The position numbers and the translations under genes are program-made. Below are positions 22,440 through 59,305 of a DNA stretch of 64,000 bases, one piece after another. The DNA comes from Haliotis asinina. Lineage: Eukaryota; Mollusca; Gastropoda; Lepetellida; Haliotidae. Position 1 is the stretch's first letter. Every line of letters starts with the position of its first letter. The stretch lies in assembly GCF_037392515.1 (NCBI RefSeq), contig NC_090291.1, forward strand, positions 14,324,501 through 14,388,500, in the 5' to 3' direction. Under the pieces are notes generated by a model. The model searched no databases. It saw only the letters and a program-made list of their open reading frames with translations, and was not told the origin of the DNA.

Positions 22440-23810
22440 AAAGCCTTAGTGATCGTTTGGTAATGCCATATACCATTTTTAAGACATCGATACTACGTTG
22501 TATTATTGATGACACTTAGTAATGCTCATTCTGTTACATTTTGGGGTGCCATCAAGGATTCACAAGCTCGCTTTCAGGGTAGGGCAGTTTAGGAGAGTAG
22601 GGCGCTCTAAGCAACTACTCTAAACCATCGCGACCGAAACAGCGTATTTATACACACCCCAATCCAAGGTGGTGGCCAATCAGCATGTCATACGTGACAT
22701 GTCTTATCTGCTCCCAGTCTGTCACAGACACCGATACGATCTGATTCCATAGTATGACGATAATTGTAGATCATTAGACGAACGTGTTAATGTCATCAGC
22801 ACTAACATCTACTCCCTCTGTATCGGCTTCGTTAGGTACCAATACAATGTAACACGCTGCTCAGGTACGAAAATGGAGGTTTGGTGTTCAGCGTCGCGAT
22901 CATTAAGGTCGGAGGCTTATACCCACCGTCTTTCCTTCCGTATAAAGCTTGAGATTAAACTACATATAGCGGTAATTTTAGACAACAAACCCATTCAATC
23001 CTAATAAATGATCATGAAAATATAATGTTGGAATATTTAAGGAAATGATCTTCCGACAATGTGAGTAAATTGCCCCAATGTACTTAAAATGGCATTGATT
23101 AACAGCTCAATATAGAAATAACATTTACTAATGTGATTTTGCTACAACCGGCTTTATGAGGTGTTTACGTATTATATCATCACAGGCATAATTATGTAAT
23201 CATGCTACACTGCATTGTATTATTCCTTGCCGCTCAAAAATATTTACAAAATGTTTACGTTACGATAGCTCTAGCTGTTTTAGCGCCGAAGGTGTTGATA
23301 TGTATATTCTTCTGTTTGGTAACAAGTGATATGGTTCGTATAGTCGCAGAAACCAACACATTTTGCGTTAGATCTGTTTCTATTAAACCCCGTTCTATCC
23401 TTGAAGCTCAACTGATCGTCATCGACACGTGTCGGTGTCAACGATTTTATCTGACTGACAGATGTGTATGAGATATCCATGCCAATACGTTTCCATCTGA
23501 TCAGTTAGTAAGTTTAGGTGTATAACTACTACAAAGTATACTGTATATACAATGTATTCACCATTATATAGGGCGCTAGTAAGCGAAGGTGCCTGGGTCG
23601 TTCCATATTGTGACCGGGTGTAAAACCTTGTAGTTAACATTACGTGCAGGGGTTTTCAGTGCTGCCACAACCCGTAGTGTGCAGCATCAACTCATCCGAT
23701 GGTAGGTAGCCAGATGGTGGACACACAAACACGTACAGTCACCTAGTTGCGGGTATTGTAATGTGCAGTATAATTGGTCAGTATACTGTGTTTATGTGTC
23801 CCAACTCACC
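22440..23810. other. Intergenic DNA without recognised genes
   Basis: Short ORFs only, none with motif or splice support. Confidence 0.35.
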
Positions 23811-26653: not shown

Positions 26654-26743
26654 TAAACAAAGACAATATATTATCGCCAAAGCAACTTATTGACCATTTC
26701 AAAAGGCAGGGACGTCAGTTCTTGATCAATCATCATATGTCAT

Positions 26744-27834
26744 CTACTGACACATCATCTTGTTCATTATTCCAGGCATACAGCGGAGTGAGCCACAGCA
26801 TTTCATGGCGTCGATGCCATTAATTTTGCATTCTTCATTTCGGAGGCGACACTGTGAAATAATAAAAAGACAGTCACACATTATGAGTATAATATCAACT
26901 AACTGTGTCAAGTGTAATATTTAGTACATCTGTACATGCAGAAGTTCCTGTCCCGATATTATATAAATAGCATTAAGTTAAGAATATTACAACGTGTGAT
27001 ATAAAGTAAAATTGAAATTAAATACTACTCACAATTTGGTTTTATATTTTCATTGTAAATTATGTACAATTACGATTTGACAAACTCGAGAAGACAATAT
27101 CTGGTTCATTCTGGTTGGGTGAAATATAAGCTTCAGATTCTCCTTATTAACCTAAAAAACAATAAAACAGTTCTTAGTTATTCACTTACCCCAACGTTTT
27201 TCTTGCAGATTCTTGTGTTTCCTATTCCAGACTCACACATCAAGCCATTACAGCAGGTTTCACCGTTCATCACATTGCACATCTGTCCTTCAGTCTTGCA
27301 CTGGGAAAAAACACATTCAAGGATGTCATTTTCTGTGCTATGAGGGGCTCGACATTTCGGATCATCTTCTTACGCATTTATCAGCTGAATGTAAGCCAAG
27401 TTTCAAATAGCGACACAATTTCATTTGAAAATAGCAACAGCGATAAGACATTACAAACGTGGACACATGCAAAACCAGTAACTGATTGCAACTGATGTGA
27501 AAAGCAATGGACCTCTGGAAGCCTGAATAAAATTCAGACTCACTTCTAAATAAGATTCAAATGTTCGGTTTTAAGTACGCTCAAGTCGAACTATTTCATC
27601 CACAGCAGATGCAGAATGGATGCTCTGACACTGGTTTCGACTTGTACTAGCAATCCTAGCGCTATGGTGATCGTAACTCTCATTTCTTAGAATAGATCTA
27701 CTGCAGTCGGAATTAGATCCTACAGCCTAAACATTAGCTACTGAAATTAATAATTTAGAACTCACAAAGCCATGCGAATCTTGAATCAAGGCTGATGCTA
27801 CGAGGATTAGAGCAACGCACACTTTTGACATCAT
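26744..27834 (-). CDS. Gene D: class II secreted double-cystine-knot peptide
   Basis: Coding exons, all on the minus strand and in phase 0: 27834-27766, 27300-27190 and 26851-26744; 95 residues. Exon 1 is a signal peptide (MMSKVCVALILVASALIQDS-HGF). Exon 2 is knot 1, CKTEGQMCNVMNG…CC…C…C, spacing C-x6-C-x7-CC-x4-C-x9-C. Exon 3 is knot 2, CRLRNEECKING…CC…C…C, spacing C-x6-C-x9-CC-x4-C-x9-C, ending CQ-stop. The two knots are joined by a short KKNVG link, the shortest in the cluster. A 5' UTR exon (ending 28168, gtaacc donor) and a TATA box lie upstream. The CC-centred six-cysteine spacing is that of inhibitor cystine knots; folding, target and role are unknown. Likely secreted, with a mature form of about 72-75 residues. 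It faces gene A, 7.4 kb away, head to head. Confidence 0.9.
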
Positions 27835-28167
27835 TGTAACACAGGAAAACTGAAAACAAATTTATTTGTGATCCATAATATGTTTTCCAACGAACTGTAT
27901 ACAGACAACAAATACACATAACATTGTATTAATGGGCTTAAAGTACAGTTTTAGAAAAGAAACCAATCCAAATGTATACTTGCGTGAATTTTCTGTTTCA
28001 ATCATACTGCTAATATCAATTACTGTGTTTGATATGTAAAGGACAAAAACAACAATACTGAGTCAGGTATGGGAAATGTATGAACATTCTTCAGGTTATG
28101 AAATACTACATCTTGAGAAATGAAAACACTTTTGATAACGACTAGCATGAAGTATACACAGGGTTAC

Positions 28168-28227
28168 CTTTTCTGCTGATCACCTGAGAGAAGATGACTC
28201 TTTGACGGTGGCTGGTGTATTTATACC
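28168..28227 (-). promoter_or_regulatory. Gene D core promoter and 5' UTR exon
   Basis: TATAAATA on the minus strand (28225-28218), then a non-coding exon ending CAGGTGATCAGCAGAAAAG at a gtaacc donor (28168/28167). The same layout occurs at gene F (TATAAATA 59170-59163, donor after 59113) and, on the plus strand, at copy G (40026-40078). The 'tgatcagcag' core is shared by all. Confidence 0.75.
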
Positions 28228-28235: not shown

Positions 28236-31200
28236 TCGACAATTAACCTTTAGCCTGCTGAATTAATTTCAGCATAAGGCGCTGAGAAGAGGGTGGGAGA
28301 TTTCAAACAGTCGGTGTGTCACTAAATAAGGAACAACTGAAAAAATATTCAGCCCATTAATACTAGATAGAAAAATAAACATTATTATCAAAAAATATCC
28401 AGACAATTTCAAACGTACAGATATTAATTGCAAGACAAACATAAATAAAGTAAATTTTATTGAATTTAACTGAACTGCTCGATTGACAGCCGGATGCATT
28501 TTATATTAGGAGCCGTATAAATTGTTCAATTATCGCAAACCGATTTCAATATTCTTACTACTGATATTTCATAAGTATCTGACTTTAATTTCGTATATTT
28601 GTATCGGCAAATATCCGCGCGACGACCAATTAAAAATTAATTCTGAAAAAAATAATCGAAAACGTTCGTCGTAAACAAATCATATTTTCGATGCCATGAC
28701 AGGTCTCACTGAAATGGCACGATTACGTTTATTTAAACGTGTCATGTCATGAAAATAGCAGAATAAAATACATGATTTATAAACATTCATGAGTGCAAAT
28801 TTCAAGTGTTATGGTTCAATAAGTTTTGCACAAACCCGCAAAAAGACGGTGTTAGATCGTGTTACACGTACGAAAAACAAACATGGCGCGCTTCGTCCAA
28901 CTCCTTTATAAAATATAGCTTTTTTAGTCAGAAGAAATATTACAGAACTCTTCTGTGTAAGACCTGGCGAAAGAGGGAGCATTTCTCATTCTACAAGTGT
29001 TCCATGTATCATTTTCCGTTTAGTATGACGAGAGACATATGAAAATTAAGATCGTGAAATCTAACTTGTTTTCTAGTAAATGCAAAGGTCACCGGATGTG
29101 ATGTCACAGACAGGGATTGTCTGAGGAAATTCATTCGTTATTGAATATTAACAGAAAAGTTGGAGATATTTCGTCTAACAAACCCAACTTTAGCACAAAT
29201 AACTGTCTAAAATGATTAATCAGAGCTCATAGATTTTTCTTGGTGTATTTTTTACTATATAATTCGCAAATAGCCGAACCAGTTTGACCTTGTATGCTCC
29301 CGTGACCCGGAAACAGTAGTCGATCAACACTGCCGATGCAAGTTTTTCAGCATCTTTATTTGAATGTTTGTTCATATTAGGCACATTACTCTATTGTCCA
29401 CTGAATATAATGACAGCAAAGATATAATTGTGATGCATGTTGATCCTAGCTCATTCTGTTTTTTGACATGGTCCGACACAAAAACGTTTACAAACATCAT
29501 TCTCAACAACAGGTGCGCGGATATGGGCGTGGCATTTGTGTTTCAAAATAACATTCATGCTTTTCTTTTTGTGACGATTTAGTGTAGTAGCAACTGCAGT
29601 ATACATGTTTTATTAACTAAAATATATTTTCAGTTATAGTTTCACATAACATCGGAGATGATTTGATAAATATTGCGTTCAAATTACATGATTGGAAAAA
29701 TTATATGTCTCACTTCAGAACAAGTTGAATTACATTCATAATTTTATGCAATAAATTAACGTTCTTGTTGAATAATTATGATAGATTTGTCAATGTTTTA
29801 TGTTTCATAACTGGTTACAACTTTAAATCTTTTCATATGTTTTCAGATGTTAATTGATATTAATAATATAACAATTATTTTTCTCTCCAAAATACACAAG
29901 GGCAAAGACACTTAAAGTCTGTCAATGCATTAGCAACGTGTAAATAACCAAATTATAATTAATGTCTTTCAGTAATGTTGAAAACTGACAATTTTACACA
30001 ATTCTTAAATACAACTACATGTATGCCATAAAATATATGGATAGATGTTACATATTATTTTGTGTATTTTATTTCTTTATAATATCATGCCAAAATGTAC
30101 ATCAAATACAAATGGGTGATGAGCTATTTTTGTTTTCAACAGTACCACTTTGTTTACTGAATTATTTTGAATCGCACATGACTAATGTCATTTATGTTGT
30201 TGCAGTAACAGTATATTTATCAGAAAATGTTATCATTTGATAAAAAAAGAAACCATATACATATAATAAGTTATATTGTCTCTGGTGAAAGTAAACAGGC
30301 TTCATGTTCTGTAAATATATATTACTCTACCTTATTGTCTTTTCCTGGGTCTAGGAGCAATGTCACAATATCAAATGAGTCTATTGAACTTTCAAGGATT
30401 GTTTCTGTTTGCTGAAGTGTCTGATGGTGATACTCCAATTATTTAGTGTTCAATAGCCTAAACCATCATAAAACAAGAAACATCAAGAACAGTCTTCTTT
30501 GAATAACAAAATGCCAAGGTCTTTGGTTTAAGATCTGGAAGCATTTGATATATATGTCTTTGTCATATAAGTATTGCAATGAAAAAAATCTAAATTGAAA
30601 TCATAATGAATAGTTCCAAACTGGACAACAAAAACCACTCACCGCAGAGCTCAGTATTAGGAAAAAAGAAATCTACTTGTCCCTGGTGCCACCACATGAT
30701 TACCTTGATGCCACAGACTAACACAGGTTGCACCTCCTGCTCAGCACTTAATTATCTGTCACTTGTAGTTTTGATATTCCATATTCAAAACATCACTACA
30801 ACAAAATTATTCTAGGTCTGGTATGATAATTTCATATTACGTCATAAAATTTCATCACAAGAAAAAAATGAGTCTGTCTTTCAATCACTGTCAGTGTAAT
30901 CACTGCTCCAAGAGTTTGGATCATCAGTCTGTTATAACAGTAAAATAAGAACATAGACACTTTAAAAAGTATGGCCATAAACATGAGGTACATTTTGCAG
31001 TTCAGATTGCACTAGTGCAATATCTAAAAGCTTTATGGAGCCACGGACTGAGCCACATGACATGATTTTTTTTACACAAATATGCACACACGTCAAACAA
31101 TTTGATCTGAAACATTACCTGCATTATACTAGGTAGAATTAACTCCGAAAGCTCTGCCGTTTGGAGTAACAAAATAATTTCAATTTTGCTCCAAATTCGT

Positions 31201-32680
31201 GAACAAAAGATGTGGTGTTTAGCTGTTTTAATGTCTAAAATAAATACTGATTCTCTAAGACGATGACAGTTGTTTTCTAAGCAGTAATTAATTTTTATGA
31301 AATACATTTACTGTACGTTACATTCTCACACTAGCTCTGGTTTCGTTCGTTTCTGCACAAGGAAAAATGATTTTTTTCATGACATCTTCAATCATCAAAA
31401 TTGTACTTCTTGTGACGATATACACAGAACATTATAATGTTATTGTTACGACACACTGACAATTTATAAGTCTCCCCGTGTCAGAACATTCTTCGAAAAA
31501 AATAGACCGCGAAAATCATCGACTTCGGATTTGCTAAACTAAAGATCAACACATCGACGGCTAACTTGAGGAGAAATACTACAACACAAGCAACAAATGA
31601 CAACTGCTATTGAACACAACTAACAGTAAATAACTGAGGATGACTGAAAGGTAATTCTGGTGTATAGTATGGATCTTACGTGAATTTGAATCCGTTTAGA
31701 AAATGTATCAATGGTCGTTGTCAAACTCGTTCATATTTTACTTCCACGAGTGCCATGCCGTGTACGTGCTTCCGGTTTCATCAAGGGTGGGTACAATTAC
31801 AAATATTGTGATATTGTTTCATGATCTGCATTATATAGGTATTGAGTCGTTTTCTTTCAATGTATATGTGTTCAGATTCTGCGTATGAACGCGTTTTTTC
31901 AAACAACCTTCGTATCTTGTAACTTAGAAAGACCGCGAGTTTGGCCACGCCCTTTCGGGTCACCTACGGCTGTCAACTTTGTGAATGTTGGAAGGTTTAT
32001 CAAACAAAATCAAAATAAAATCGCTAAATATGGTAATTTCTGTGCAGAGACAATAACATTTACCTATTAACACCGTGTAATTAATTCCAGATAAAATAGT
32101 TGGATATGTCAAAAGGATGGCACATTCCCTTCGGCATCACGATGCATGTGGAGTTGTTTGTTTACCGCCGTTGCCATGATCGTTCCTGTTCGTCCAATCG
32201 ATGATGTAACATTGAGATTGGTTTTGTTTATAATTATTTGAGCCGAAAGTTAGTAATTTTTAGAAAATGGGAAACTTATGGGCTTTCTCTTCGTCAAGGA
32301 ACAAAAAATATGGATTAAACTATCAAAAAATATTTCATTATGAAGAAAATATTAGACTGGGTACCACACGATGGTGGTGCGCTGGAAGTCAACAATGGCC
32401 GTTACTTTCGACTGCGTGCGGAGAAATTCGGCGATCTCATTTTTATTTAGCGGGCGTTTCGTTTTAAGGTATACAAACGTATTGAACATTATGTATTTAA
32501 AAAGGTGAGAATTAGTACATTCCATACATAATTCATGTGACACGTAAATCCGACTCGTTGAATAATTATTGCAAGTTTTATTTGGAGATGTCACTATCCT
32601 GCACTCCTGTCGAATGGGTTCGACGGCAGCATTGAGAGGATTAAGAACACTGAGTTGAGGATGACACATTAAGGGAACAG
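28236..32680. other. 4.4-kb AT-rich stretch without recognised genes, probably an insertion
   Basis: No splice-bounded exon with a family signature was found. At genes E and F the TATA box is followed within 30-50 bp by a monomer-like element. At gene D the match stops just after the TATA box (near 28235) and resumes only at the left edge of the satellite (about 32680). The stretch between looks inserted. I see no terminal repeats or target duplication. One weak motif is noted separately at 32282-32430. Confidence 0.45.
32282..32430 (+). other. Weak FLYWCH-like motif
   Basis: One frame reads SSRNKKYGLNYQKIFHYEEN then IRLGTTRWWCAG, resembling the 'Y.F…G..YWRC' part of FLYWCH zinc fingers. The following C…H residues are not clearly placed, and there is no splice support. 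It may be a remnant of a gene or DNA element, or chance. Confidence 0.2.
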
Positions 32681-32687
32681 GTGTGAC

Positions 32688-34695
32688 AAATGTAATCTTG
32701 GATCTGTTACTAGTCTGTCAGTCACAGCCTTCGATAAAATCTGACGCTACTGTTCATAGGTAAATCAGCTTCATCAAGGATGGATATCTTTACATGTCAA
32801 GATTACAAATGTAATCTTGGATCTGTTACTAGTCTGTCAGTCACAGCCTTCGATAAAATCTGACCCTACTGTTCATAGGTAAATCAGCTTCATCAAGGAT
32901 GGATATCTTTACATGTCAAGATTACAAATGTAATCTTGGATCTGTTACTAGTCTGTCAGTCACAGCCTTCGATAAAATCTGACCCTACTGTTCATAGGTA
33001 AATCAACTTCATCAAGGATGGATATTTTACATGTCAAGATTACAAATGTAATCTTGGATCTGTTACTAGTCTGTCAGTCACAGCCTTCGATAAAATCTGA
33101 CCCTACTGTTCATAGGTAAATCAGCTTCATCAAGGATGGATATTTTTACATGTCAAGATTACAAATGTAATCTTGGATCTGTTACTAGTCTGTCAGTCAC
33201 AGCCTTCGATAAAATCTGACGCTACTGTTCATAGGTAAATCAGCTTCATCAAGGATGGATATTTTTACATGTCAAGATTACAAATGTAATCTTGGATCTG
33301 TTACTAGTCTGTCAGTCACAGCCTTCGATAAAATCTGACGCTACTGTTCATAGGTAAATCAACTTCATCAAGGATGGATATTTTACATGTCAAGATTACA
33401 AATGTAATCTTGGATCTGTTACTAGTCTGTCAGTCACAGCCTTCGATAAAATCTGACCCTACTGTTCATAGGTAAATCAGCTTCATCAAGGATGGATATT
33501 TTTACATGTCAAGATTACAAATGTAATCTTGGATCTGTTACTAGTCTGTCAGTCACAGCCTTCGATAAAATCTGACGCTACTGTTCATAGGTAAATCAAC
33601 TTCATCAAGGATGGATATTTTACATGTCAAGATTACAAATGTAATCTTGGATCTGTTACTAGTCTGTCAGTCACAGCCTTCGATAAAATCTGACCCTACT
33701 GTTCATAGGTAAATCAGCTTCATCAAGGATGGATATTTTTACATGTCAAGATTACAAATGTAATCTTGGATCTGTTACTAGTCTGTCAGTCACAGCCTTC
33801 GATAAAATCTGACCCTACTGTTCATAGGTAAATCAGCTTCATCAAGGATGGATATTTTACATGTCAAGATTACAAATGTAATCTTGGATCTGTTACTAGT
33901 CTGTCAGTCACAGCCTTCGATAAAATCTGACGCTACTGTTCATAGGTAAATCAACTTCATCAAGGATGGATATTTTACATGTCAAGATTACAAATGTAAT
34001 CTTGGATCTGTTACTAGTCTGTCAGTCACAGCCTTCGATAAAATCTGACCCTACTGTTCATAGGTAAATCAGCTTCATCAAGGATGGATATTTTTACATG
34101 TCAAGATTACAAATGTAATCTTGGATCTGTTACTAGTCTGTCAGTCACAGCCTTCGATAAAATCTGACCCTACTGTTCATAGGTAAATCAGCTTCATCAA
34201 GGATGGATATTTTACATGTCAAGATTACAAATGTAATCTTGGATCTGTTACTAGTCTGTCAGTCACAGCCTTCGATAAAATCTGACCCTACTGTTCATAG
34301 GTAAATCAGCTTCATCAAGGATGGATATTTTACATGTCAAGATTACAAATGTAATCTTGGATCTGTTACTAGTCTGTCAGTCACAGCCTTCGATAAAATC
34401 TGACGCTACTGTTCATAGGTAAATCAGCTTCATCAAGGATGGATATTTTTACATGTCAAGATTACAAATGTAATCTTGGATCTGTTACTAGTCTGTCAGT
34501 CACAGCCTTCGATAAAATCTGACGCTACTGTTCATAGGTAAATCAGCTTCATCAAGGATGGATATTTTTACATGTCAAGATTACAAATGTAATCTTGGAT
34601 CTGTTACTAGTCTGTCAGTCACAGCCTTCGATAAAATCTGACCCTACTGTTCATAGGTAAATCAGCTTCATCAAGGATGGATATTTTACATGTGA
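32688..34695 (+). repeat. Satellite-like array: 17 monomers of 118-119 bp
   Basis: 'tgtaatcttggatctgttac' recurs at 32691, 32810, 32929, 33047, 33166, 33285, 33403, 33522, 33640, 33759, 33877, 33995, 34114, 34232, 34350, 34469 and 34588. Monomers are nearly identical, differing at three main places: gacgct/gaccct, cagctt/caactt and the length or content of the 'ggatatttttac' T-run. Each junction holds a perfect hairpin, CAAGATTAC-aaat-GTAATCTTG. No ORF runs through it. Diverged single copies lie just upstream of class II genes F, E and (reversed) copy G, so the monomer is an amplified promoter-proximal element. Near-identity suggests recent expansion or gene conversion. Confidence 0.97.
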
Positions 34696-34699: not shown

Positions 34700-35415
34700 A
34701 TGATTCCTTGCTCACGTCAAGCGTGGAAGCAGCTGACTACATTATGAATACATAATGGCGAATACAAAGTAGCGAATATTTATACAAAAAGAACCTGTTA
34801 AAATATTACAGGTTTAACACATGTTCTTAAGGACTTCGGCACTGCAGGATATACTGCTCTGTTGATATGTACGTTGTAAATCCATGACATCCATTAAATT
34901 CATGAATCGGCATAAAAGGATTTCCTTTGTTTATTACAAGATAATAGAGAGTTTAATCGTCGGATTTAGAATATAGGGAAAATGAGGAGGATACAATAAA
35001 CATATTTCGTTTGGTAGGAAAAAAGATAGTGTTGTAATATATTGAGAACACGTAAATTCGACACCTTTTGAATTTGAAGCTCAGACACCAAGACGTGTTT
35101 GTACTGAGATATTTGTTTTACGCAAGGGCAGCAGATATGTTTCAATGTTTTTATTGATCTTACGAAAAGTTTAAAAACCTAATCCAAGTTAAAACCACAA
35201 TGAAGAAGAAGTGTGTTGCAATTCACAGCATCCACTACAGATTGTAGTCTAAAAATCGGGAACTTTTGTTGACTCTTTCCTCGGGAGGACCGAGTCCTCG
35301 GGAAAAAATATAGGAAACACTTGACTTACTTATTCCTCACCGCCTTACATATCATTTGATCAGTCCGAATTTACGAAAGAGCGAAACACACGGACAGTAG
35401 TTTGCCATTCCTCGT
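34700..35415. other. Intergenic DNA between array and gene A promoter
   Basis: No gene. Parts align by eye with the E/B and F/C intergenic regions: 'cagctgactacattatgaat' resembles 43960-44000 and 59350-59400, and 'aatatattgagaacacgtaa' resembles 44155 and 59551. This is homologous spacer between head-to-head genes. Confidence 0.5.
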
Positions 35416-35420
35416 CCACA

Positions 35421-35645
35421 TTTCAAGTTCAGAGAAACGTCAGTGACACACGTCAGGTGAATCCCGATAAATCATCAAGATCTACAACTGATCAGAGGAA
35501 CGTTACACTTTACCGTCAGATCATGAACTGATCTTAACGGATGTCTGACATGAAATGCAAGTTCATCAGCAGCGCAGGATATGGGTAGAAATACATGTGT
35601 TTGCTAAGCATTCGACATTCTCAGTTTGATTCTTCAGCCGAACAG
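35421..35645 (+). promoter_or_regulatory. Gene A promoter module and 5' UTR exon
   Basis: Shared with genes B and C: 'ttcaagttc', a CACGT patch, 'atcaagatctacaactgatc' with CTGATCAG (35488-35495), then AGATCAT, ACTGATC, a TATA-like 'gggtagaaatac' (weaker than in B and C), the initiator TCAGTT (35621-35626), and the non-coding exon ending 'gccgaacag' at a gtatgt donor (35646). Confidence 0.75.
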
Positions 35646-36063
35646 GTATGTATGATGAACACTTGAGTGAAATAAACGTGACCGCGTTTTGAACGCATTA
35701 TAATTCTATTGTAACTTAAACTGAATGTTTGAGGAAGGTTCAGTTGCAACTTCAAAGGCAAGGGTGTGGGACTGAAAACCAAGTCATAATTTGTAATTTA
35801 AAAATGTGATAATGTAACTCTGCACATTGTTAGTGCACATTTGAAACATGCGCCATGTACACACCTTTCGATTCTATGACTTTTTGCCACCATTCTGTCT
35901 CTTATCTAACTCAGCACAGTTTGTTTATGGTACCGTTTAACAGATATAATGATGTAATATCTTAATGAGCCTCCACAACAGTTTTACACGATTAGATATT
36001 TTAGGAAGTATGAGATATAGCGTGTAATGCATTCTCCTTTGTTTCAGAGCCCCCTAACATAAA

Positions 36064-37720
36064 ATGATGATCAAAGTGTGTCTTGCTTTGTTCTTTGTGG
36101 TGTCACTTTTGGTAAACAATGCCTTTGGCTTTGGGGTAAGTGTTCTCATTTCACATACTCTTCTTTCTAACAAGCATAACATTTATTCATGAGAACATTG
36201 AGATTTTATAGCAATGGTTGTAAACTATTCCGAATTATATCCAATCTGTAACTCTCATCCAAATGTCTACCGGTATATTTGTGTTAGTTAGAATTCTGAT
36301 ATCTTTTGCAACTTCGATTCTGCTGTCATGATTTACAATTCTATCATACATTAATGTTCACCTCAACTATCCCTTTTTACTACCGTTGAATATCCACATT
36401 ATTATTGAAATGTGTCACACCGCAGTAGTAAACTCCATTTTGCAACCTTAGCTTTTGCTTTATGCTTTTAATATGCATTTCGTTATAAGAAAAATATGGA
36501 TGATTTTGTTATTTCAGCTCTTTTCATAGTTTAACATATTTGCTTACGTACATATATTTGAAAGACGTTTGGGGTTTTTCTTGGTATGGTATAATTATAC
36601 AAACAAATCAATACCCATATCAACATTTTCCTTCAGTGTCGAAACGAGGGACAAACATGCAGTTGGATGAATGGCAACACTTGCTGCAATGGCTTGACGT
36701 GTCAGCGCGGAATTGGTAACATCCAAACATGCAGACGAAACTATGGAAGCGGTATTGGCGGCGGTATGGGGGTGAGATAGGTTATCAGATAATTGTCACA
36801 CTGCAAGATTAAGTCGGGAAATGTACTTCTGGACCAGCAAGAATTTAAAATGTCCGCACGTGTCAACAGAAGAATATTTGTGAGATACCGATAAGATGAA
36901 GTTCTTTTTACGTGAATTTGAACGTCTATTCTTAGAGCCCATCAAATCCACCATAGCACACCTCTTAAGGTAATTGTTTGGTCGCGAACATTGCATACAG
37001 ATACAATGTAGTAAGTAAGTGAATGAGTGAGTTTAGTTTTACGCCACACTCAGCAGTATTCAGCTATATGGCGGCGGTCTGTAAATAATCGAGTCTGAAG
37101 TCCAGTGATCAACAGCATGAGCATCGATCTGCACATCTGGGAACCGATTACATGTGTCAATCAAGTCAGCGAGTCTGACCACCCGATCCCGTTAGTCGCC
37201 TTTTACGAAAAACATAGTCGCCTTTTCTGACAAGCATGGGTAGCTAAAGACCTATTCTACCAGGGACCATCACGGGTCAGGTACAGTGTAGTTATGACAT
37301 TTTTGTTAAAGGCATCAGTTCAGTGCATCGTAATCTATTTTTACAAACATGCATACATAACTTATATCTATGTAATCAGGTTCCCATGATATCCTTCATA
37401 GCATTTCTCATTTTAATGTGTATATTAGTTGCACTGCATACATGCATAATGTACATGCACTTACGGTACGTCTGTTAAAGACATCAATCACATGCATTCA
37501 ATTCACTCTTTTTCACAGTTACCTTATAATCATCGCGTTTGATCCACAGTGATGATGTTATCTGTGCAGACACGATATCTGGATATGTTAAGTATTCATT
37601 GTTGTTTTACAGTGCCGTCGCCGTAACGACGAATGTAGGATTAACGGCATGCCTGCAATGTCATGTTGTGCATCTCTCCGCTGTCTGCCTGGATACATGA
37701 ACAGAATGACTTGTCAGTAG
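36064..37720 (+). CDS. Gene A: class I secreted double-cystine-knot peptide
   Basis: Coding exons 36064-36135, 36637-36771 and 37613-37720, all phase 0; 104 residues. Exon 1 is a signal peptide (MMIKVCLALFFVVSLLVNNA, then FGFG). Exon 2 is knot 1, CRNEGQTCSWMNG…CC…C…C (C-x6-C-x7-CC-x4-C-x9-C), followed by the linker RRNYGSGIGGGMG. Exon 3 is knot 2, CRRRNDECRINGMPAMSCC…C…C (C-x6-C-x9-CC-x4-C-x9-C), ending TCQ-stop. The two knots align with each other, so they arose by exon duplication. Start chosen because it follows the acceptor at 36047 and opens the signal peptide; the second Met is equally possible. AATAAA signals at 37776-37786. Intron 2 carries a repeat copy. Secreted, probably disulfide-rich; target unknown. 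Confidence 0.92.
37013..37277 (+). repeat. Common interspersed repeat in intron 2 of gene A
   Basis: Full-length-looking copy from 'gtaagtaagtgaatgagtga' to 'gggaccatcacgggtc'. Genes B and C lack it at this position, so it inserted after the class I genes separated. Confidence 0.8.
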
Positions 37721-37775
37721 CTATAACTGATACATTTGTCTCAGCATCACCAAGTATGTCCATGGAATGCATGAA

Positions 37776-37786
37776 AATAAAATAAA
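37776..37786 (+). terminator. Overlapping poly(A) signals of gene A
   Basis: Two overlapping AATAAA hexamers in 'gaaaataaaataaaaatg', about 55 bp after the stop. Gene C has one AATAAA at the equivalent place (62438-62443). Confidence 0.7.
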
Positions 37787-38029
37787 AATGATTTCAAACA
37801 TCTCAGACTTGTGTTGACCTGTGTACTGTTGTATTTATCATATAGAGACATTCTGACACTTTTACCTCAATATTATGATATGTGTACATGGCATGCATCA
37901 CAATACATGCGATTTCAAGCAGTCGAGAATTGTTTGTGTTGTCCATATGTACAGATGTAGTTAAAAAATGTAAGAATGTTTAGTGGACAGTGTATTTGAC
38001 CTGCATGGCATCACAAGATGAAACCCAGA

Positions 38030-39844: not shown

Positions 39845-39970
39845 CAAAATGACATATGTACAGGTATCATTTCATAATGAAGCTGATTTACCTATGAACA
39901 ATGGTGCCAGATTGTGACGAAGGTAGTGACTAACAGACCGGTAATATATCCAAGGTTACAACAAACACCT
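39845..39970 (-). repeat. Diverged single copy of the satellite monomer upstream of copy G
   Basis: The reverse complement reads 'ttgtaaccttggatatatta…ggtctgttagtcac…ttcgtcacaatctgg…attgttcataggtaaatcag', matching the array monomer in order. It ends about 60 bp before the TATA box at 40026, the same relation to a class II promoter as at F and E but in mirrored orientation. Confidence 0.75.
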
Positions 39971-43799: not shown

Positions 43800-43915
43800 A
43801 CATCAAATTAAAATTTGCATCCAATAATAGTCTGTCAATCATCTTTTCCGATACAATGTGACTGCACTGAACATAGATGAAGCATGTCGATCTTTAAAGG
43901 GTATCGTTACCTGTA
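43800..43915 (+). repeat. Single-copy homologue of the satellite monomer upstream of copy E
   Basis: 'tagtctgtcaatcatctttt', 'gatacaatgtgac', 'actgaacatagatgaagc' and 'taaagggtatcgttac' match the array monomer in order with substitutions and small gaps. Confidence 0.7.
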
Positions 43916-43919: not shown

Positions 43920-44585
43920 TAGGGTTATCTTCTCACGTCGTGCTCTGAACGCGGAAACAGATGAGGACAATTACATGATCTTCGGAGCGAATACATAATA
44001 ACGAATTTGAATGACATCACCATGTAACAGCTTATGGTTGATTTAAACAATTATGTTATGATAATATTTAGCTGCTAAATTCATGCATAAGCAAAACATT
44101 AATTAAATATTGCAAAAATCACAAGAAAATAGAAAGTGAGTGTGGAAACCTGCAATATATCGAGAAGTGAGCCCGACACGTTCTGACGCACTGTTTTCTT
44201 TTTATGAATACAGCGTTATATATTGTGTTTCAAGATAACAGATCTATCTAAGGAGAACCTAAATTTCTTTCACAAAATGTTTTTTTTTATCTTTGGGAAA
44301 AGCACAACAGAGGAATCTTGTGTTTGACCTACACGTGCTGTCATCACACATTCGCCATGGTGTTCGATTAGAAGTAGTCTTACTAGGTATTGTCTACTTG
44401 AACAAGCTACAAAAACAGTGGAGAGAATGTCAATTGAAATTTCCTGACATCATGGCAGCTTACTTATTATGAGTAAAAGGTTTCCAGATGTGAAATATGG
44501 GTAAATATTTCACATTTTGCCGTTCCAGCTACCATACTAGTTTCCTGTCAGAACATTAAACAGGCACTTGCATGCAATTCTTCTT
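43920..44585. other. Spacer between head-to-head E and B
   Basis: No gene. It matches the F/C spacer (59310-59960) through most of its length by eye, and parts of the D/A spacer. Confidence 0.5.
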
Positions 44586-45079: not shown

Positions 45080-46617
45080 ATGATGCTCAAAGTGTGTCTT
45101 GCTTTGTTCTTTGTGGTGTCACTTTCGGCACAATACACCTTGGCCTTTGGGGTGAGTGTCCTAATCTTCTTTTCTTTGTAATTAATCTTCGTCTGTGTTA
45201 ATATGGAGATTTCAAATCTGATCTGGCTGCCTTTAGTTTGAGACTTGTTTCGACATGGCAAAAGGAAACACAAATTATATCACATTGGGCCCAATATACC
45301 ACGTTTTGGTATGGGATGGTATGGTATGCTGTTCCTAACCTCCAACGGTAACTTTGCTTTCGTTCATACGTCTTTGCATGATTTTGGTCATGAAAAAAAT
45401 CTAATGTGCATTCTTTCACCTTAACAATAACTTGTTTACCGTATATCAATACCCACGTAATTATACGGAGAAATTCCTGTTGTTACCACAACACTGATTT
45501 TTGTTGGTAATACAATGCAACTATGCCTTGTTTAAAGAAGTCTAAATTGTTGTTTGCCTAAATTATAAGAAGGCTACACCAGACTTCTTCTTGTTGATTC
45601 AGTGTCAGAACGAGGGACAAACATGTAATGTGATGAACGGGAACACTTGCTGCAATGGCTTGACATGTCAGTATGCAATGGGCAACATCAGAACATGCCA
45701 GAGAAACATTGGAGGTGGTGTTGGCGGTGGTATGGGGGTAAGTTACCACACTGTAACAGTTGCCACACTTTAGACGTTAAATTCATAAATGCGTGGGTTC
45801 ACCTTTTTCAGTTACTCGTATCCAACCCTTACAGCGAGGTTACGAAACTTCTATAAAAGTCATCCTGTTCAAATATTGTAATTTCAGTCTATTGTAATCT
45901 ACTTTTGTCATGGATCCAGATGATCCCAAGAGATGACTCTATACTTGAAGATGATGCGGTGTGTGGACTAGTCTTTCAATCAAACCATGCCCTTTGTACC
46001 CATTGAATCCCAAAAAGCACGCCCCTCAAACTGGTCACTTGAACGCGAAATTACTTGCATATTCTTACACGTACAGCTTAGTTACGAAACTTGTATAAGA
46101 GTCATCATACGTATATACTTTTAAATATTGTAATTTCAGTCTATTGTAATCTACTCTTATCACGGATCCAGATGATCCCAAGAGATGACTCTGTGCTTGA
46201 AGATGATGCGGTGTGTGGATGTGTTCAAGAAAATATTCCGATTATGTTTTACAGTCAGTTTGTATGCTATGTGCCCACAGAACCCTTCACAGCATGCCTT
46301 ATCTGAATGCTGCATTACTTGCAATGCATAGATGCATAATGAACACTTCGGTACGATAGTTATGTTAAAGGTGTAGATCATAATTATGCTTTCTATTCAC
46401 ATTTTTCAAAATTAGCTCTAATCATCGAGTCTTCTGAGTCGAGTGAAGATGTTCTCTGCAGACTACACGATATGAAGATGTGTAAAGGTATTCATATTAT
46501 GTTTTACAGTGCCGTCGCCGTAACGAAGAATGCAGGATTAACGGTATGCCTGCCATGTCGTGCTGTGCATCTCTCCGGTGTCTGCCTGGATACATGAACA
46601 GAATGACTTGTCAGTAG
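45080..46617 (+). CDS. Gene B: class I secreted double-cystine-knot peptide
   Basis: Coding exons 45080-45151, 45603-45737 and 46510-46617, all phase 0; 104 residues. Signal peptide MMLKVCLALFFVVSLSAQYT, then LAFG at a gtgagt donor. Knot 1 is CQNEGQTCNVMNG…CC…C…C with linker RNIGGGVGGGMG. Knot 2 is CRRRNEECRINGMPAMSCC…C…C, ending TCQ-stop. The cysteine spacing equals genes A and C, and the mature peptide differs from C only in the linker region by my reading. The first acceptor is at 45061. Intron 2 contains an internal duplication of about 140 bp (45832-45970 and 46078-46218). It pairs head to head with the incomplete class II copy E. Role unknown. Confidence 0.92.
45832..46218 (+). repeat. 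Duplicated segment in intron 2 of gene B
   Basis: Two copies (about 45832-45970 and 46078-46218) share 'gttacgaaact', 'tattgtaatttcagtctatt' and 'gatgatcccaagagatgact'. Gene C has a single version near 61864-62000. Each copy contains a good acceptor-like 'tgtaatttcag'. Confidence 0.75.
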
Positions 46618-46639
46618 ATACATACTGACACTTTGAATT

Positions 46640-47595
46640 CCCTGTGTCCTATTTCGATATGTGTGCATAAAATGCTTATTTTGAACGTTTTATATTTGTT
46701 GTTGTTGCCCAATGCACACGCTGTCACGGTAAAATGGATCAATTGCATATGGTGTTGACACCGTCTTTAATCTTGAAACACTGAGATTTCAACAAAGACG
46801 AGGGATATTGGGGTAGCCATGTGGTTTTTAAAAGGCGCTCGCCCGTCACGTCAACGTCGAGGGTTCGATTCCTCACATGGATACAGTGGTATCTGGTGTC
46901 CACTATCGTGATGTTGCTGGATTATTGAGAAAATCGACAAACAATTAAACTCACTCAACCTTAAAATCAAACCATGGGAAGTAATTTGCCTCAAATTTAA
47001 CTCTGTGTAGGTTGAAAGTCGTTTAAGTGAGGACACTGCATGCAGCCAAAGCTATACACATGATAATCATAAGACCTTGATACCAGCTTTATACTGGCTA
47101 TGTGATGTGTAATTCCAAGAAAATGTGCAAGTTATACCGATTTCAATGTTCAAATAATTAATGCAGTGAGGGTTACATGTTTCTTTTTAATCACTAGTGG
47201 ACAAGAAGAAAAAACGTGTGATGTAGAAAAGTCACACTTTGATGACAGCGGAGACAAACTCGACAGTACGAATTCTATAATAGGAATATTAGTTTTGTTC
47301 TACATCACGTGTTACACATGCTTCAATCTGCATGTACTCTGAAGTTAGTATTCTTAGATATAACAGGCTAATCACGATATTTTCTGATCTTTTTGACGTC
47401 AGAAATTGAACATCTCAAACCAAAGTTTAAAAATAAAACAATCAAAACTCTCTAATCCAGTTTCCTGTACACAACTCAGTCTGAATTTTGCGCGATGTGT
47501 TTTGAAATGTCGTAATCGACCACTGTTCGAGACTTACGTCTCACAGATATGACACGTGGTATTATATAGGATACATTTAGAAAGAACATCCCTGT
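46640..47595. other. Intergenic DNA with one SINE
   Basis: The SINE is at 46808-46957. An inverted pair 'cacgtgtgatgtagaaaa'-like and 'tagttttgttctacatcacg' (about 47212-47310) suggests a small foldback. No gene. Confidence 0.4.
46808..46957 (+). mobile_element. tRNA-derived SINE, plus copy
   Basis: 'ttggggtagccatgtggtt', box-B-like 'gggttcgattcc', 'ctatcgtgatgttgctgg' and an 'aaactcactcaa' end. Confidence 0.75.
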
Positions 47596-47602
47596 CCCAT
47601 TT

Positions 47603-47818
47603 CTATTCACAATTGCGTGCCAAGAACGTCCATTCAACAAAGTTCACTGCCAGTAAATCGTTTGAGACTTCATTATAAGTCACGTTAGACAAAGCACACT
47701 TATGTACAGTAAATCCCGTGTGTTCGTATTCTGCCGATTTACACAGATATTTAGTTTCATCAAGACACTGTTTTATACAGTCATCCATGCTCCATATCAT
47801 CAGTACCCACTCACCCAA
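47603..47818 (-). CDS. PAN/apple-like exon of a secreted protein (terminal exon?)
   Basis: The minus strand reads MDDCIKQCLDETKYLCKSAE, then YEHTGFTVHKCALSNVTYNE and …FVEWTFLARNCE-stop. The pattern C-x3-C-x7-C-x5-Y…C-x-L-S…C is that of PAN/apple domains, small disulfide-bonded modules that bind proteins or sugars. The open frame extends upstream to about 47827 without a clean acceptor, so the 5' boundary is uncertain. It may be the last exon of a gene whose first exon is at 49902-50214 on the same strand. That link is inference; the splice phase could not be settled. Confidence 0.45.
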   Translation of the reverse strand: MGEWVLMIWSMDDCIKQCLDETKYLCKSAEYEHTGFTVHKCALSNVTYNEVSNDLLAVNFVEWTFLARNCE

Positions 47819-47950
47819 TGTTGTATCCTTTTATTCCAAGGCCAGGATAGCGACTGAATGTGCGTCCACTCGGGTTACCTGGAGTCAGAAATTAAACAGC
47901 ATGGCAGAATGTGTCTATCTCCTTAATCTAATAGACGAGTGATTACCGGA

Positions 47951-48287
47951 TTGTTCCGTAAGGGAACAGCCACGATAAGCTGGGTTTCACATGGGGTTGC
48001 TCCGTAAAGGAACAGTCATGATAATCTGGGTCTCGCTTGGGGTTGTTCCGTAAGGGAACAGTCATGATAATCTGGGTCTCGCTTGGAGTTGGTCCTAAGG
48101 GAACAGTCATGATAATCTGGGTCTCGCTTGGGGTTGTTCCGTAAGGGAACAGTCATGATAATCTGGGCCTCGTTTGGGGTTGCTCCGTAAGGGAACAGTC
48201 ATGACAATCTGGGCATCGTTTGGGGTTGTTCCGTAAGGAAACAGTCATGATAATCTTGGTCTCGCTTGGGGTTGGTCGGTAAGGGAA
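47951..48287. repeat. 46-47-bp tandem repeat with a palindrome per unit
   Basis: About seven and a half units, with 'tccgtaag' or variants at 47954, 48001, 48047, 48092, 48138, 48184, 48230 and 48276. Each unit holds the inverted repeat GTTCC-gtaag-GGAAC followed by 'agtcatgataatctgggtct'. The unit at 48092 is shortened. Confidence 0.9.
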
Positions 48288-48464
48288 TCGGACTCCCGGC
48301 CCGCAAAGCCTTCGTAGTGGTACAACCTATAGTGAGACTATATTAAATCTCTGGCTTACGAATGACGTGATGGTACTAACACTTTGTGGACACGGTCCCT
48401 GATTCTGAAAAAAACCCTAATAATCTGACCATGCTTGGAGCCAAATTTGATTGGCAAGATTCAT

Positions 48465-48928
48465 GAAAGTTTAGTTTTAAGCCACACTCGGCAATGTTAC
48501 ATTTATATGGTGGCGGGATGTACATAGTAGCGTCTGGACCAGATAGTCCAGTAATCAACAGCATCAGTTGTAATTTGGATAAGATGACATTTTTCTATCA
48601 AGTAAGTGAGCCTGTCGACCCGGTCCAGTTATTTGTCTTGAGTTTCGCCAGGTACGCTATACGTTGACTTTCAGAACAAAACACAAATGCAAGTTATTAG
48701 CGTGCCTGAAAGTAAATATTTCAAATATTTTACTCAGTAACATTAACTATATTATGTGAGCGGTTTGTAACATTGCAAATCTGATCCAGACAATCAAGTG
48801 ATCAACAGCGTGATTCCACTGGTTGGAATAGAATGACATAAGCCAAAGGTCAGCTAACATCCTATTAGTCCCCTCTTACGAAAAAACAGGAGGTGCGGAA
48901 GATCAATTCTAGCTCGGGTCTTCACAGA
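48465..48928 (+). repeat. Two diverged copies of the common interspersed repeat
   Basis: 48465-48645 ('gtttagttttaagccacactc', 'agcgtctggaccagatagtc') and 48755-48928 ('gtttgtaacattgcaaatc', 'gatcaacagcgtgattcc', 'cccctcttacgaaaaaac'). Confidence 0.6.
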
Positions 48929-48929
48929 T

Positions 48930-49895
48930 ATGATTAGACTGTACTCGCTTATCGAAAAAGATATAATTCACTGCCACGAGATTCTGCAGATTGAGCTCTC
49001 ACCAGACATTGGCAAACAGGTAACGTACATTTTCGGCATCCCGCAGCTGATGCAGAATAATATTGGTTTGGTGGACAGAGGCACCTGCCTTTGTAACACA
49101 GTGCGTCATTTTCACATCTGGCGCCAGGATTGCATGAGGTGTTTAATGAATCCTGAAAAACTATAGGGCAAAGGACATATATTCACAGCAAATGTTACAC
49201 AGGTAGAAATGACTACAATAGCAATCAAAGTAGCCGAAGTGCATCCTAAAATAATTTTTCATAATTTTTGGTGGAAGTGTTTGGAGGGATATTGGTTTTA
49301 CCCCCCACTGTGCACCCAACTGGGCAGCGATGAAAGGGGACAGGTTACATGTGTCTATCTACGAAATATGAATGAGATGTGTATCCTCTTAAATACCTAG
49401 TTCAGAACAGATAAATGTATGCTGATTGGCTAAAAGTCTCGCTGATGTGAAAATATAGGAAGGTAGGCATGTCGTAACTGCTGGTAAGGGAGCTTGGGCT
49501 TGTAACATGATGTATTGGTTGTCTATTTAATACTACACTTCAAAGGCTTGGTACCTGATCGATCTGCATACATCCTGTCGTGATAATCTAGGACTAGTAA
49601 AATTTTGTGCACACACTTATGGATGACGTTCACGTGATTTGGTAACAGAAAAGGTAAGAGTCATATTGACATTCATCCAACATGTGGCTGAGAACCGGTT
49701 CTGATGGAAGTACAAGGTGTACTCAATGGTCAATTCGGGATACCGCCATCGTGCCACATACTGATAACCATCCTTCGTCACCCATTTGTAGAATAATGTT
49801 AATATGTCAATATTAATATATCGAATTTTGTTTTATTAAAGCTCACGCGTATACATATAGTTCAGATGAAGAAATTACAACTTACAAGATCGAAA
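48930..49895. other. Intergenic or intronic DNA
   Basis: No recognised exon. It may be intron if the exons at 49902-50214 and 47603-47818 belong to one gene. Confidence 0.35.
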
Positions 49896-49901
49896 CCTTA
49901 C

Positions 49902-50214
49902 CTTGCTTCATCACTTGTCTACGAACAGTATAAATATTGGATGTGGTGTTAGCTGATCCTTCAGGTGACAGAAGTGGTGCTGTTAGCCATGAACATTTGT
50001 GCGACATTGAGTCTTTCAGCACCATCACACAAACCTCCTCATCCAGGCACCGGATAATGCACCTCAAAAGGCCCGGTCTACCATCATCTACAGACCAAGC
50101 GGTCTGACTGAGCATTTCCGTCGAAATCATCATGGTTGAATGCTTCAAGCCATACCTCTTCATTGAGGAACTGTATGCCGATGCAGACACAACCAAGAGC
50201 AATATGCCTAGCAT
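49902..50214 (-). CDS. First coding exon of a secreted PAN/apple-like protein
   Basis: On the minus strand ATG 50214 opens a signal peptide, MLGILLLVVSASAYSSSM. Then comes a cysteine module: LLRCIIRCLDEEVCVMVLKD, HKCSWLTAPLLSPEG, ending with IYTVRRQVMKQ at a strong gtaagg donor (phase 1). The C-x3-C-x6-C…C spacing fits the PAN/apple-like modules common in mollusc secreted proteins. ATG 50214 was chosen over an upstream in-frame Met because it starts the hydrophobic run. Downstream exons should lie at lower coordinates; the exon at 47603-47818 is a candidate. Function unknown; extracellular. Confidence 0.55.
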
Positions 50215-50299
50215 TGTGGATGCGTGTCTTTGCTTTTGCTCTTCCTCAGCTAAGTGTGGGGATGAAGTACAAAAGAAGCACTTTATCATAAGAAAAATA

Positions 50300-52195
50300 C
50301 TCCACGAGACGCTGATGTCAGCACTTTGTGTAGTAATCGTGTATAATTAACCAAAAGCCATAAATCTGGCGCTTCAATGTTGAAAATGATAGAGGACGAA
50401 ACGATTTAGCAAAAAGGACACAGAAACAAATCATTTCACGAGACGTCCAGAAACTACTTTGCTGTAATGCTGCAAAATCTGACATTTTGAAAAAGCACCA
50501 CTCTTCGCTACTGCTTGATTACCGATTCCCCTCTCCAATACACATTTATACTAAATGTCATGAAATTAATGTATTTGGTATCATTTTGCGCAAAATATCT
50601 CCCGAATCTAATTATGTACTAAACATGACAAGTCACAGAGGCATTTGTTTGACACGTTGCGCCCCTTTGTTGCACTGTCTGTAAAACGTTGACTTTTTTA
50701 TTCGATATTCATGTATTCAATTTTGAAATGAAACAGAAAACGAAAATCAATTTATCAGTGGCAAACATATGTTTATAATAGCACAGTGTTTCTATAAGAT
50801 AATTTTCATAGTAAATTTGCACTATATTTATATTAAGAAACAAACAAAAATGGGTTTTATCAGAGGGTAGTTACAATTAAAACGGCATACCCAAATGAAA
50901 CTTGATAAAGGGGATAACTCTTGCCAAAAATATTATGAAGTATGATTAGAAGTCCGTTAAAGGGAAATAACTATGTAACATAAACACGCGCTCCTACGGT
51001 CACATCCCGTCGGATCCGTTATGCGCACAATTTCAAACCACAGTATCCAACCTGTCTAAGCGTCTTAAAGCAAAGGAACACGAGAATGAATATATTGATA
51101 GATTCAATTCATTATTTTATTGCATGAAAGGCCGTAGGTACGTATATAACAGAATCTAATCACTGCTCCTTTTGATGACTTCAAACCGTTTCAGTCCAAA
51201 GTGGCCCCATGAATAAGAAACCTAATGAACATAATGATAATCAGTGAGACGCGGATCATGATCGAAACATCAGACCAACTCTGTAAGGATTTTGAAGAAT
51301 CTAAACCAAAGAAACTGACACGTTGTGTAACACACAATCATTCAAATACCCACACAGTTCACTACCTGTTACGAGACAGGAGTACACAGGGACAACCGGG
51401 TACGCGAGAAAGGATGGTGGCAGCACAGCACACGTTACTGAATCAATAATTATTACTTACTCGGCACTTGTGAAAATGCTTCTCGAACACATGGCTGTCC
51501 ATTTCTCTGCACCCCCGAAAAGATCCAGTTAATGTTTTAATATTAATCACATGAGGGAATGCTTCTATGAAATCTGTTGGGTTGATGACTCCATCACATT
51601 CCGTCTTTAATGACATTCACCATTTTGGAAAAAAATATAACATGTTTTGTCAACTTCTAGTGTGGAGAAGCAAAAGCTAGTCTCTTGGCGCCAGTCAATG
51701 CACAGAATCTTTCTGACCTAGGTGTCTGTTGTGGCAGTGGGTAGGACCTGTAAAACTCATATTTAGTGGATTACCTATTACACTGTGATGGATCACCAGT
51801 AAAGATGACGATAAGTGTTAAATGATCGAATGTAGATATCAGATGTCAAGGATAGTGTTACTTGATGTTATCTTGCCTCATTGCTATCACTGAAAAACCA
51901 ACGCACAAACAGGCATGTATTTACACGTTGCTTTGGTGCCTCAAACTTAAAAGTTGTGTTTAGTCGCATTTCACTGCAACATATTCCATCCGTACAGAGA
52001 ACGTGCATGCTATGTTAAGATTTATATACGGAACGTTAGCACGTATCCTGCACTTGATTAAGGATAACCACGAACGCCACATGTTCTACTTTCCCAATAA
52101 TGGCACTGAATGATATTATGATAGTCCAGATATACATGTATGAATAATAAAGTGTGATGCCGATTATAATATTTTCCCTCTGGATAAGTTTCCGT
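50300..52195. other. Intergenic DNA without supported genes
   Basis: AT-rich. Short ORFs only. A possible minus-strand exon near 51455-51525 (acceptor 'gggggtgcag', donor gtaagt) has no recognisable product and is not called. Confidence 0.35.
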
Positions 52196-52202
52196 TGTGT
52201 AC

Positions 52203-52323
52203 TGACTCCACCGTTGTCCCAGTTTCTCTTGCATCTCGCCACTCCATTACCTGTTTGACACGAGAGGCCAGCACAACAACCATTAGAGTTCCCGATCTCA
52301 CATCTCTGCCACATGTTCTTGAT
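52203..52323 (-). pseudogene. Divergent knot-1-like exon
   Basis: After a good acceptor ('cttgcaattcag') the minus strand reads IKNMWQRCEIGNSNGCCAGL, then SCQTGNGVARCKRNW. Aligned on the acceptor and the CC pair, this matches the knot-1 exon of the cluster: -C-x7-CC-x4-C-x8-C, five framework cysteines recognisable. No partner signal-peptide or knot-2 exon was found nearby, and the donor is weak. It is either a distant relative still in use or a fossil; the latter is assumed. Confidence 0.5.
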
Positions 52324-52692
52324 CTGAATTGCAAGCACATTGCTATGTGATCTCATCAGAATCTCAAACAGATCACTGGTCCATTTACTGGCAGCTAGGG
52401 TCCATGCAGGTAGCAAAAACAGAAAGTCACCATTGTCCCTAGTATGGTTAACTACTTTCGGTTGTCTATAACGCTTTTTTTAAATTGTATTGTCCTAATG
52501 TTATGACATTGTTCAGACATAGGTACAAGTTAGATTTGGCGTGTCTGTGATAATCCAGTACCTTAAATTTGAGTACCTTAAATTTGAAATCACTCACTCA
52601 CACACAGTAAACCTATTGGTAGCTCATCTCTACATTGCAACCACGGCATGTTGTCATGCAAAGGAGAGTCAAGAATCATTCAAAACAGGAAC

Positions 52693-53297
52693 TGAGTGAG
52701 TGAGTTTGATTACACGCCCCACCCAGCAATGTTTCACCTATATGGCGGCAATATGTAAATAATCAAGTCTGGACAAGTCAGTCCAGTGATCAACAGCATG
52801 AGCATTGAACTACGTAATTTGGATACGGTGGCATGTGTCAACCAAGTCGGCGCGTCTGGCAACCTGATTCCGTTAGTCGCATCTTACGGCAAGCCTTGTT
52901 TCATTGATGATCAGTTCTAACCCGGATCTAACACGGGTCCAGGCCATGAATCACCATCATGTGAACCCAGTATGTAAAACAACAGTTGCAGCCTGCAGTT
53001 TCATAATGGGTAGTGAGTGAGTGAGTGAGAGCCTGACGCCACAAGTATTTGAGCAGTTTGTGATTTGTCTGCATAATGAGACAGAAGAGGTGGAACGGCG
53101 GCTTCCTTGTTATTTAGCGCCACACTCAACAATATTCCTGCTATATGGCGACTGTCTACACATATTCGATTAAGACCAGACAATCCAGTAATCAACAGCA
53201 TGAGTATCGATACGATTGAATGTGATGATAACTGTCAAAGAGTCAGCGAGCATGGCCAGTCTAATTCTACCTCAGATTTCTTCGTTTCTACGGGTCA
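52693..53297 (+). repeat. Two copies of the common interspersed repeat
   Basis: 52693-52940 is near complete ('gagtgagtgagtttgattac' to 'cggatctaacacgggtcc'). 53012-53297 is interrupted and diverged ('gtgagtgagtgagtgag', 'cactcaacaatattcctgct', 'ttcgtttctacgggtc'). Confidence 0.75.
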
Positions 53298-54355: not shown

Positions 54356-54359
54356 ACGA

Positions 54360-55081: not shown

Positions 55082-55169
55082 ATGACATCTGATGATTGAT
55101 CATGCAGCAACGTTTGAAAGTGTGAGTAATTTGTTTGTCGATGACCTCTTTTCTCCGTTCGAATAAACT

Positions 55170-57000: not shown

Positions 57001-57007
57001 CACAACA

Positions 57008-59202: not shown

Positions 59203-59305
59203 CACATGCAATCTTGCACCCCATAATTGTCTGTCAGTCATCTTTTCCGATACTGTCTGACTATCCTGCACATAGATGAATGTCGATCATTAAAGGGTAT
59301 CTTTA
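59203..59305 (+). repeat. Single-copy homologue of the satellite monomer upstream of gene F
   Basis: 'acatgcaatcttgcacc', 'attgtctgtcagtcatcttt', 'gatactgtctgac', 'tgcacatagatgaatg' and 'gggtatctttacc' follow the array monomer from end to end. It begins about 30 bp upstream of the TATA box. Confidence 0.8.

Follow-up and report, generated by a model that had tools for sequence, protein, structure and literature searches.

A seventeen-unit tandem array beside a small-protein gene of the abalone Haliotis asinina, probably grown from a promoter-proximal element

Between two divergent genes of the abalone Haliotis asinina, here called D and A, lies an array of 17 tandem units, and alignments support the view that the unit is the paralogous counterpart of DNA found upstream of the TATA boxes of D-type genes. 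All positions refer to the 64,000-nucleotide stretch that was analysed (hereafter the window; contig NC_090291.1, positions 14,324,501 to 14,388,500). The array is an unusually readable minisatellite grown from a promoter-proximal element, minisatellites being a kind of repeat already known, and its origin by local tandem amplification of that element is, from the comparisons given below, highly probable. This in-place origin is common to the regulatory and the neutral readings of the array. The array and its two neighbouring genes are:

32686..34693, plus strand: array of 17 tandem 118/119-bp units, delimited by TRF and by cutting at the unit start
26724..28225, minus strand: gene D (D-type), with exons near 26724-26860, 27191-27303 and 27753-27840 and a TATA box at 28218-28225; exon limits set by eye
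35403..37827, plus strand: gene A (A-type), with a conserved promoter block at 35403-35680, TAGAAAT at 35586 and coding exons from 36063

TRF reported one strong array over 32686-34693, with a period of 119, 16.9 copies and 98% matches. When cut at the unit start, the same DNA falls into 17 head-to-tail units, nine of 119 bp, seven of 118 bp and a final one that ends after ~105 bp, in agreement with the 17 copies of 118-119 bp counted in a preliminary description made from the sequence alone; with 17 such units at 98% matches, the array has the near-identical, head-to-tail build of a minisatellite. The 16 full units differ at three places, namely one C/G, one G/A and one T-rich run of variable length that begins with either T or C; with these masked they are identical, and the shorter final unit follows their sequence from its start to the point where it stops. 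There are no private variants, each variant being present in at least two units, and the variant units are arranged in irregular order. Because the variants are common to several units, we infer unequal exchange, and the pattern would fit its repeated action in a young array. A search of a phage collection gave no match. We also considered an RNA gene or structured RNA at the array and dropped the idea, since there was no Rfam match at the gathering score and no tRNA, and the folds of two units were close to those of shuffled sequence (RNA z-score -1.57, with 13 of 200 shuffles as stable; DNA z-score -1.59, with 19 of 200).

The genes around the array belong to two types, whose products share a signal-like start and two cysteine-rich domains. 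The A-type genes are A and the plus-strand copies at two further loci, E and F; the D-type genes are D, the minus-strand copies at E and F, a mirrored remnant G and a decayed copy B. A larger duplication (~40.6-46.6 and ~54.6-62.4 kb) includes the E and F pairs. Gene A has three coding exons, and its spliced product of 104 residues is identical to the NCBI protein P0002 of H. asinina. From 820 candidates, a protein profile search retrieved 2 proteins, both labelled H. asinina, and within the protein collection searched the family is found in this abalone alone. No D-type protein was returned by that search, yet D (26724-28225) and the minus-strand F copy (57240-59170) read open, so these genes may be unannotated. 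The NCBI protein P0001 (149 aa; 45082-62400) resembles exons 1-2 of the plus-strand E copy followed by exons 2-3 of F, which suggests that the neighbouring E and F genes were either merged in annotation or are read through. P0001 is labelled with Toxin_7 by the protein collection's own precomputed annotation; the matches of A and D to Pfam Toxin_7 were below the cut-off (E 0.039 and 0.0036), and the PDB matches to spider knottins were weak, the best at E 0.0016. Titles and the opening parts of abstracts yielded nothing on the array or on Haliotis knottins.

Several of these genes and promoters are altered. The TATA position of A reads TAGAAAT (GTAGAAATAC), and its E and F counterparts read TATAAAT (GTATAAATTG in E, GTATAAATAC in the F copy). 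In the minus-strand E promoter the TATA box is split by five extra bases. No first coding exon can be recognised in G, and exon 2 lacks its beginning in both G and the minus-strand E copy.

The evidence that the unit derives from the same ancestral DNA as the stretches upstream of the D-type promoters comes from local alignment of the unit to the three regions named in the preliminary description, F 59203-59305, E 43800-43915 and G 39845-39970, with 500 dinucleotide shuffles per region and strand as control. The resulting relatives of the unit, together with a diverged one found by profile search, are:

39852..39962, minus strand: single-copy unit paralogue at the mirrored remnant gene G, the closest to the unit; score 120 against a shuffle maximum of 36, 81/105 aligned letters identical
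43804..43915, plus strand: single-copy unit paralogue of the E pair; score 66 against 40, 62/104 identical
59203..59305, plus strand: single-copy unit paralogue of the F pair; score 63 against 36, 62/96 identical
22702..22776, plus strand: diverged fifth copy at remnant gene B; nhmmer E 0.0053, with an exact CCGATACNNTCTGA

At each of the three regions none of the 500 shuffles reached the observed score, G aligning on the opposite strand, while wrong-strand alignments stayed at shuffle level at E, F and G. Chance similarity of the unit to these regions is ruled out by the shuffles, and the earlier statement that the unit can be aligned with E, F and the mirrored G is confirmed. In a BLAST search of the rest of the window the unit matched G at 1.8e-19 and E and F at 0.012 each, with the next best match at 0.51. 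The arrangement of promoter and element (as we call the single-copy stretch) is alike at E, F and, mirrored, at G. The distance from element to TATA box, previously put at 30-60 bp, holds for F (~33 bp) and E (~32 bp) and is slightly exceeded at G (~64 bp).

An nhmmer profile was made of the array unit plus the copies at E, F and G; its matches to those three loci are circular, so that the B match alone counts. The profile found one further place over the inclusion threshold, at 22706-22755 (E 0.0053). This place lies upstream of the decayed gene B, oriented as expected, with a TATA-like stretch ~50 bp away. With 60 shuffles for each comparison, this copy scored above the shuffles with the F promoter and element (52 vs 42) and with the array unit (40 vs 37), and not above them with E (40 vs 49) or G (23 vs 43). 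Apart from this diverged copy, BLAST and nhmmer found no further copies of the unit within the window. If no more than one mismatch is allowed, the motif CCGATACNNTCTGA has five matches in the window against 0.13 expected, and three of the five are in the B, E and F elements; at that stringency it is not kept in the array unit or in G. The remaining two matches, each with one mismatch, occupy corresponding places ~0.32 kb to the right of the element, at 44173-44186 (E) and 59569-59582 (F). A second motif, GTCTGTCAGTCA, is weak outside the array at up to two mismatches: three of its 13 matches are the E, F and G elements, and 6.3 would be expected in the whole window.

The array is more than the element written seventeen times over, as its internal junctions carry a structure of their own:

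32798..32819, no strand assigned: first of 16 identical 22-bp palindromes, one per internal unit junction, the last of which starts at 34576

This palindrome, CAAGATTACAAATGTAATCTTG, has 10-bp arms and is present at 16 of the 16 internal junctions; it occurs nowhere else in the window on either strand. The two array ends lack it, and so do E, F and G, where the longest palindrome arms are 6, 5 and 6 bp respectively. Among 1000 shuffled dimers, 6 attained a 10-bp arm. Relative to the two array ends, the junction contains seven additional bases, CAAGATT, which are the reverse complement of the bases just downstream. A templated fold-back filler added at the first duplication would account for them; alternatively, they may be derived from the ancestral right flank. 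The earlier picture of a multiplied element is thus right in that a homologous element is repeated, and needs amending in that the repetition is not plain, each of the 16 internal junctions carrying a 22-bp palindrome.

If the array grew where it now stands, its flanks should be paralogous to those of the single-copy elements. With the array reduced to a single unit, the D/A intergenic sequence can be aligned with E, F and G across the flanks. Taken alone and compared with 300 shuffles each, the left array flank scored 42 with G (maximum 34) and was not above the shuffles for E (111 of 300 reached the score) or F (192 of 300), and the right flank scored 44 with E (maximum 40) and 39 with F (maximum 35), the match to G being not clear (33, reached by 17 of 300). 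Native paralogous DNA thus appears to adjoin both array edges, on the left by one of the three loci and on the right by two, which gives partial support. With paralogous DNA in both flanks, the array most likely grew in place.

To the left, the homology with G is interrupted by a block that separates the array from the D promoter:

28247..32639, no strand assigned: apparent 4393-bp insertion between the D promoter and the array, with ATTAA on both sides

Homology with G ends at 28246 and restarts at 32640, and once joined, the flanks align with G at a score of 98 (shuffle maximum 34). The sequence ATTAA borders the block at either end and is present once in G. PiggyBac elements duplicate their TTAA target on both sides and end in inverted repeats, autonomous copies also encoding a transposase; the TTAA duplicated on both sides of 28247-32639 suggests a piggyBac-like insertion. 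The block has no clear end repeats, the best end-to-end local alignment scoring 17 and not lying at the tips. In the 5 of its 18 stop-free stretches that were scanned for a transposase, there was one weak match (E 0.088) and none at the Pfam cut-off. The array is now ~4.46 kb from the D TATA box and ~0.89 kb from the A TATA position, and since it lies beyond the apparent insertion it is no longer promoter-proximal to D. The preliminary description had placed a control element in the middle of a bidirectional pair; the array does lie between the divergent D and A and its unit is the paralogous counterpart of D-type upstream DNA, but its present position is not proximal to the D promoter. Elsewhere in the window, a 337-aa ORF at 9901-10914 has Tc1/mariner-type transposase domains (DDE_3 and HTH_Tnp_Tc3_2), and a 203-aa ORF at 12611-13222 has no Pfam match at E 0.01.

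Comparison of the collapsed D/A locus with E and F in 100-bp sub-windows, with 60 shuffles each, bears on whether the element has been under constraint. Sub-windows over the D-side promoter scored 77 and 72 with F (maxima 34 and 33) and 43 and 41 with E (maxima 40 and 34), the one over the first part of the element scored 58 with both E and F (maxima 35 and 34), and those over the A-side promoter scored 63-105 with E and 44-101 with F (maxima 33-39). Sub-windows between these main blocks were mostly within the shuffle maximum or 1-3 points over it, with the exception of 35016-35115, which scored 40 with F (maximum 33). The collapsed D/A locus therefore shares three main blocks with E and F, namely the D-side promoter, the element and the A-side promoter, and because the DNA between them is mostly unalignable, the comparison suggests that the element was kept while its surroundings decayed, i.e. 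that it was constrained. The block is alignable with E and F, yet the element shared by D and G is not more conserved than the introns nearby: these are 86% identical between D and G, as against 77% for the array unit and G, and this pair therefore gives no sign of additional constraint. Moreover, damage or decay is seen in G, the closest relative, in B and in the minus-strand E copy, so the element has also been kept beside genes that possibly do not work.

From these comparisons a history of the array can be proposed. Its starting point was probably a divergent gene pair encoding small, secreted proteins rich in cysteine, with TATA boxes ~1 kb apart and, in order, a D-type promoter, an element of ~107 bp and an A-type promoter. 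Duplication of such gene pairs would have spread the element, the homology being observed and the order of events reconstructed. In the D/A pair, the element would then have been duplicated with a 7-bp filler, which formed a palindrome with the start of the unit, and the duplicated element would have been multiplied and homogenised by unequal exchange, as the variants shared between units suggest. A separate insertion of 4.4 kb would have parted the D promoter from the element, judging from the comparison with G. The unit could represent a putative binding-site stretch of the D-type proximal promoter, in which case 17 copies of a putative protein-binding stretch, 0.89 kb upstream of A, might modulate transcription, mainly that of A. 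A regulatory effect of the array is plausible, and the chance that it measurably influences A or D in cis is, in our estimate, somewhat below even. The enhancer array, insulator and copy-number-variable tuner of the preliminary description are candidate forms of such an effect; in an enhancer array, more units would mean more transcription of a linked gene, whereas an insulator would bind insulator proteins and keep enhancers from contacting promoters. It can further be envisioned, as an unlikely elaboration, that the array arose as a new enhancer making up for damage to the promoters, the TATA box of A having been changed and D cut off from its adjacent element by the insertion; the element would then have multiplied 17-fold, with a new palindromic 22-bp site, present at no paralogue in the window, gained at each internal junction, and array length would set the output of A. 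If true, this would be a natural case of a promoter element becoming a homotypic enhancer array, with the single-copy states alongside.

The same in-place growth could have been neutral, a segment duplicated by slippage or end joining having expanded without regulatory consequence and being promoter-derived only by its location, and we regard this as having close to an even chance. Other multi-unit tandem arrays in the window (TRF: 13974-14261, 39 bp x 7.4; 47951-48287, 46 bp x 7.3; neither with a match elsewhere in the window at E 1e-6) indicate that arrays are not rare here, and recent expansion alone would explain the uniformity of the units; on the other side stands the coincidence of the unit with one conserved intergenic block, a single coincidence and not a strong one. 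An assembly artefact, such that the true number of units is other than 17, is improbable. The units are 98% identical and the count rests on one assembly, but the array is just 2 kb long, with variant units in irregular order, and an artefact would alter the unit count and not the existence of the array. Arrays of 2 kb are within the span of long reads.

A mobile-element origin has to be considered for a mollusc, in view of the satellite-like arrays of the oyster Crassostrea gigas. There, as described in the part of the source available to us, Cg_HINE are non-autonomous Helentrons, dispersed, with arrays between their ends that are flanked by subTIRs, with a microsatellite on the left and a palindrome on the right (PMC7492417). 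As far as that account goes, what the two share is short, satellite-like arrays in molluscan DNA that occur also near genes; the unit size class is similar and palindromes are present in the abalone, but at the unit junctions. The abalone array, in contrast, is abutted by native paralogous DNA, on the left by comparison with G and on the right with E and F, and judged by this flank homology it is not bounded by element ends. In addition, the unit has single copies in orthologous position at E, F and G and, apart from the diverged B copy, none elsewhere in the window. A reading of the array as the central repeat of some non-autonomous mobile element, a Helentron or the like, as in the oyster (PMC7492417, in the part available), is therefore highly improbable, and given the flank homology we set the mobile-element origin aside as unlikely.

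Local amplification of a promoter-proximal element, the origin that we favour, can be set beside several known systems. The spacer repeat units of Xenopus rDNA are promoter-derived. In the portions of the literature available, the rDNA spacer enhancer repeats of Xenopus and mouse resemble the abalone array in being promoter-related repeats upstream of a promoter; they differ in serving RNA polymerase I genes in large repeat clusters, where the abalone has one protein-gene pair. The repeats of maize b1, seven in number, have an enhancer role. They too are a non-coding stretch tandemly amplified upstream of a gene, and they differ in unit size, distance and organism; to our knowledge, that case does not involve homology to a promoter element. 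The b1 tandem repeats are described, in the part of the source at hand, as needed for paramutation (PMC3798267). The nearest general class is that of minisatellites or VNTRs near genes, some of which are tied to expression differences in humans, according to the accessible part of one account (PMC8096271). Like the abalone array, VNTRs in such accounts lie near genes and are built of tandem units that measure from tens of bases to about a hundred, and many of them vary in number; the difference is that for the abalone unit a single-copy source can be seen at paralogous promoters close by.

The unit of a tandem array near a gene often has no visible source; here, single-copy relatives stand at three neighbouring paralogous promoters, together with a decayed fourth. 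With these relatives in view, the passage from a single element to seventeen becomes open to comparison and testing. Should the array vary from animal to animal, it would amount to a natural dosage series for a single cis element next to a member of this small-protein family.
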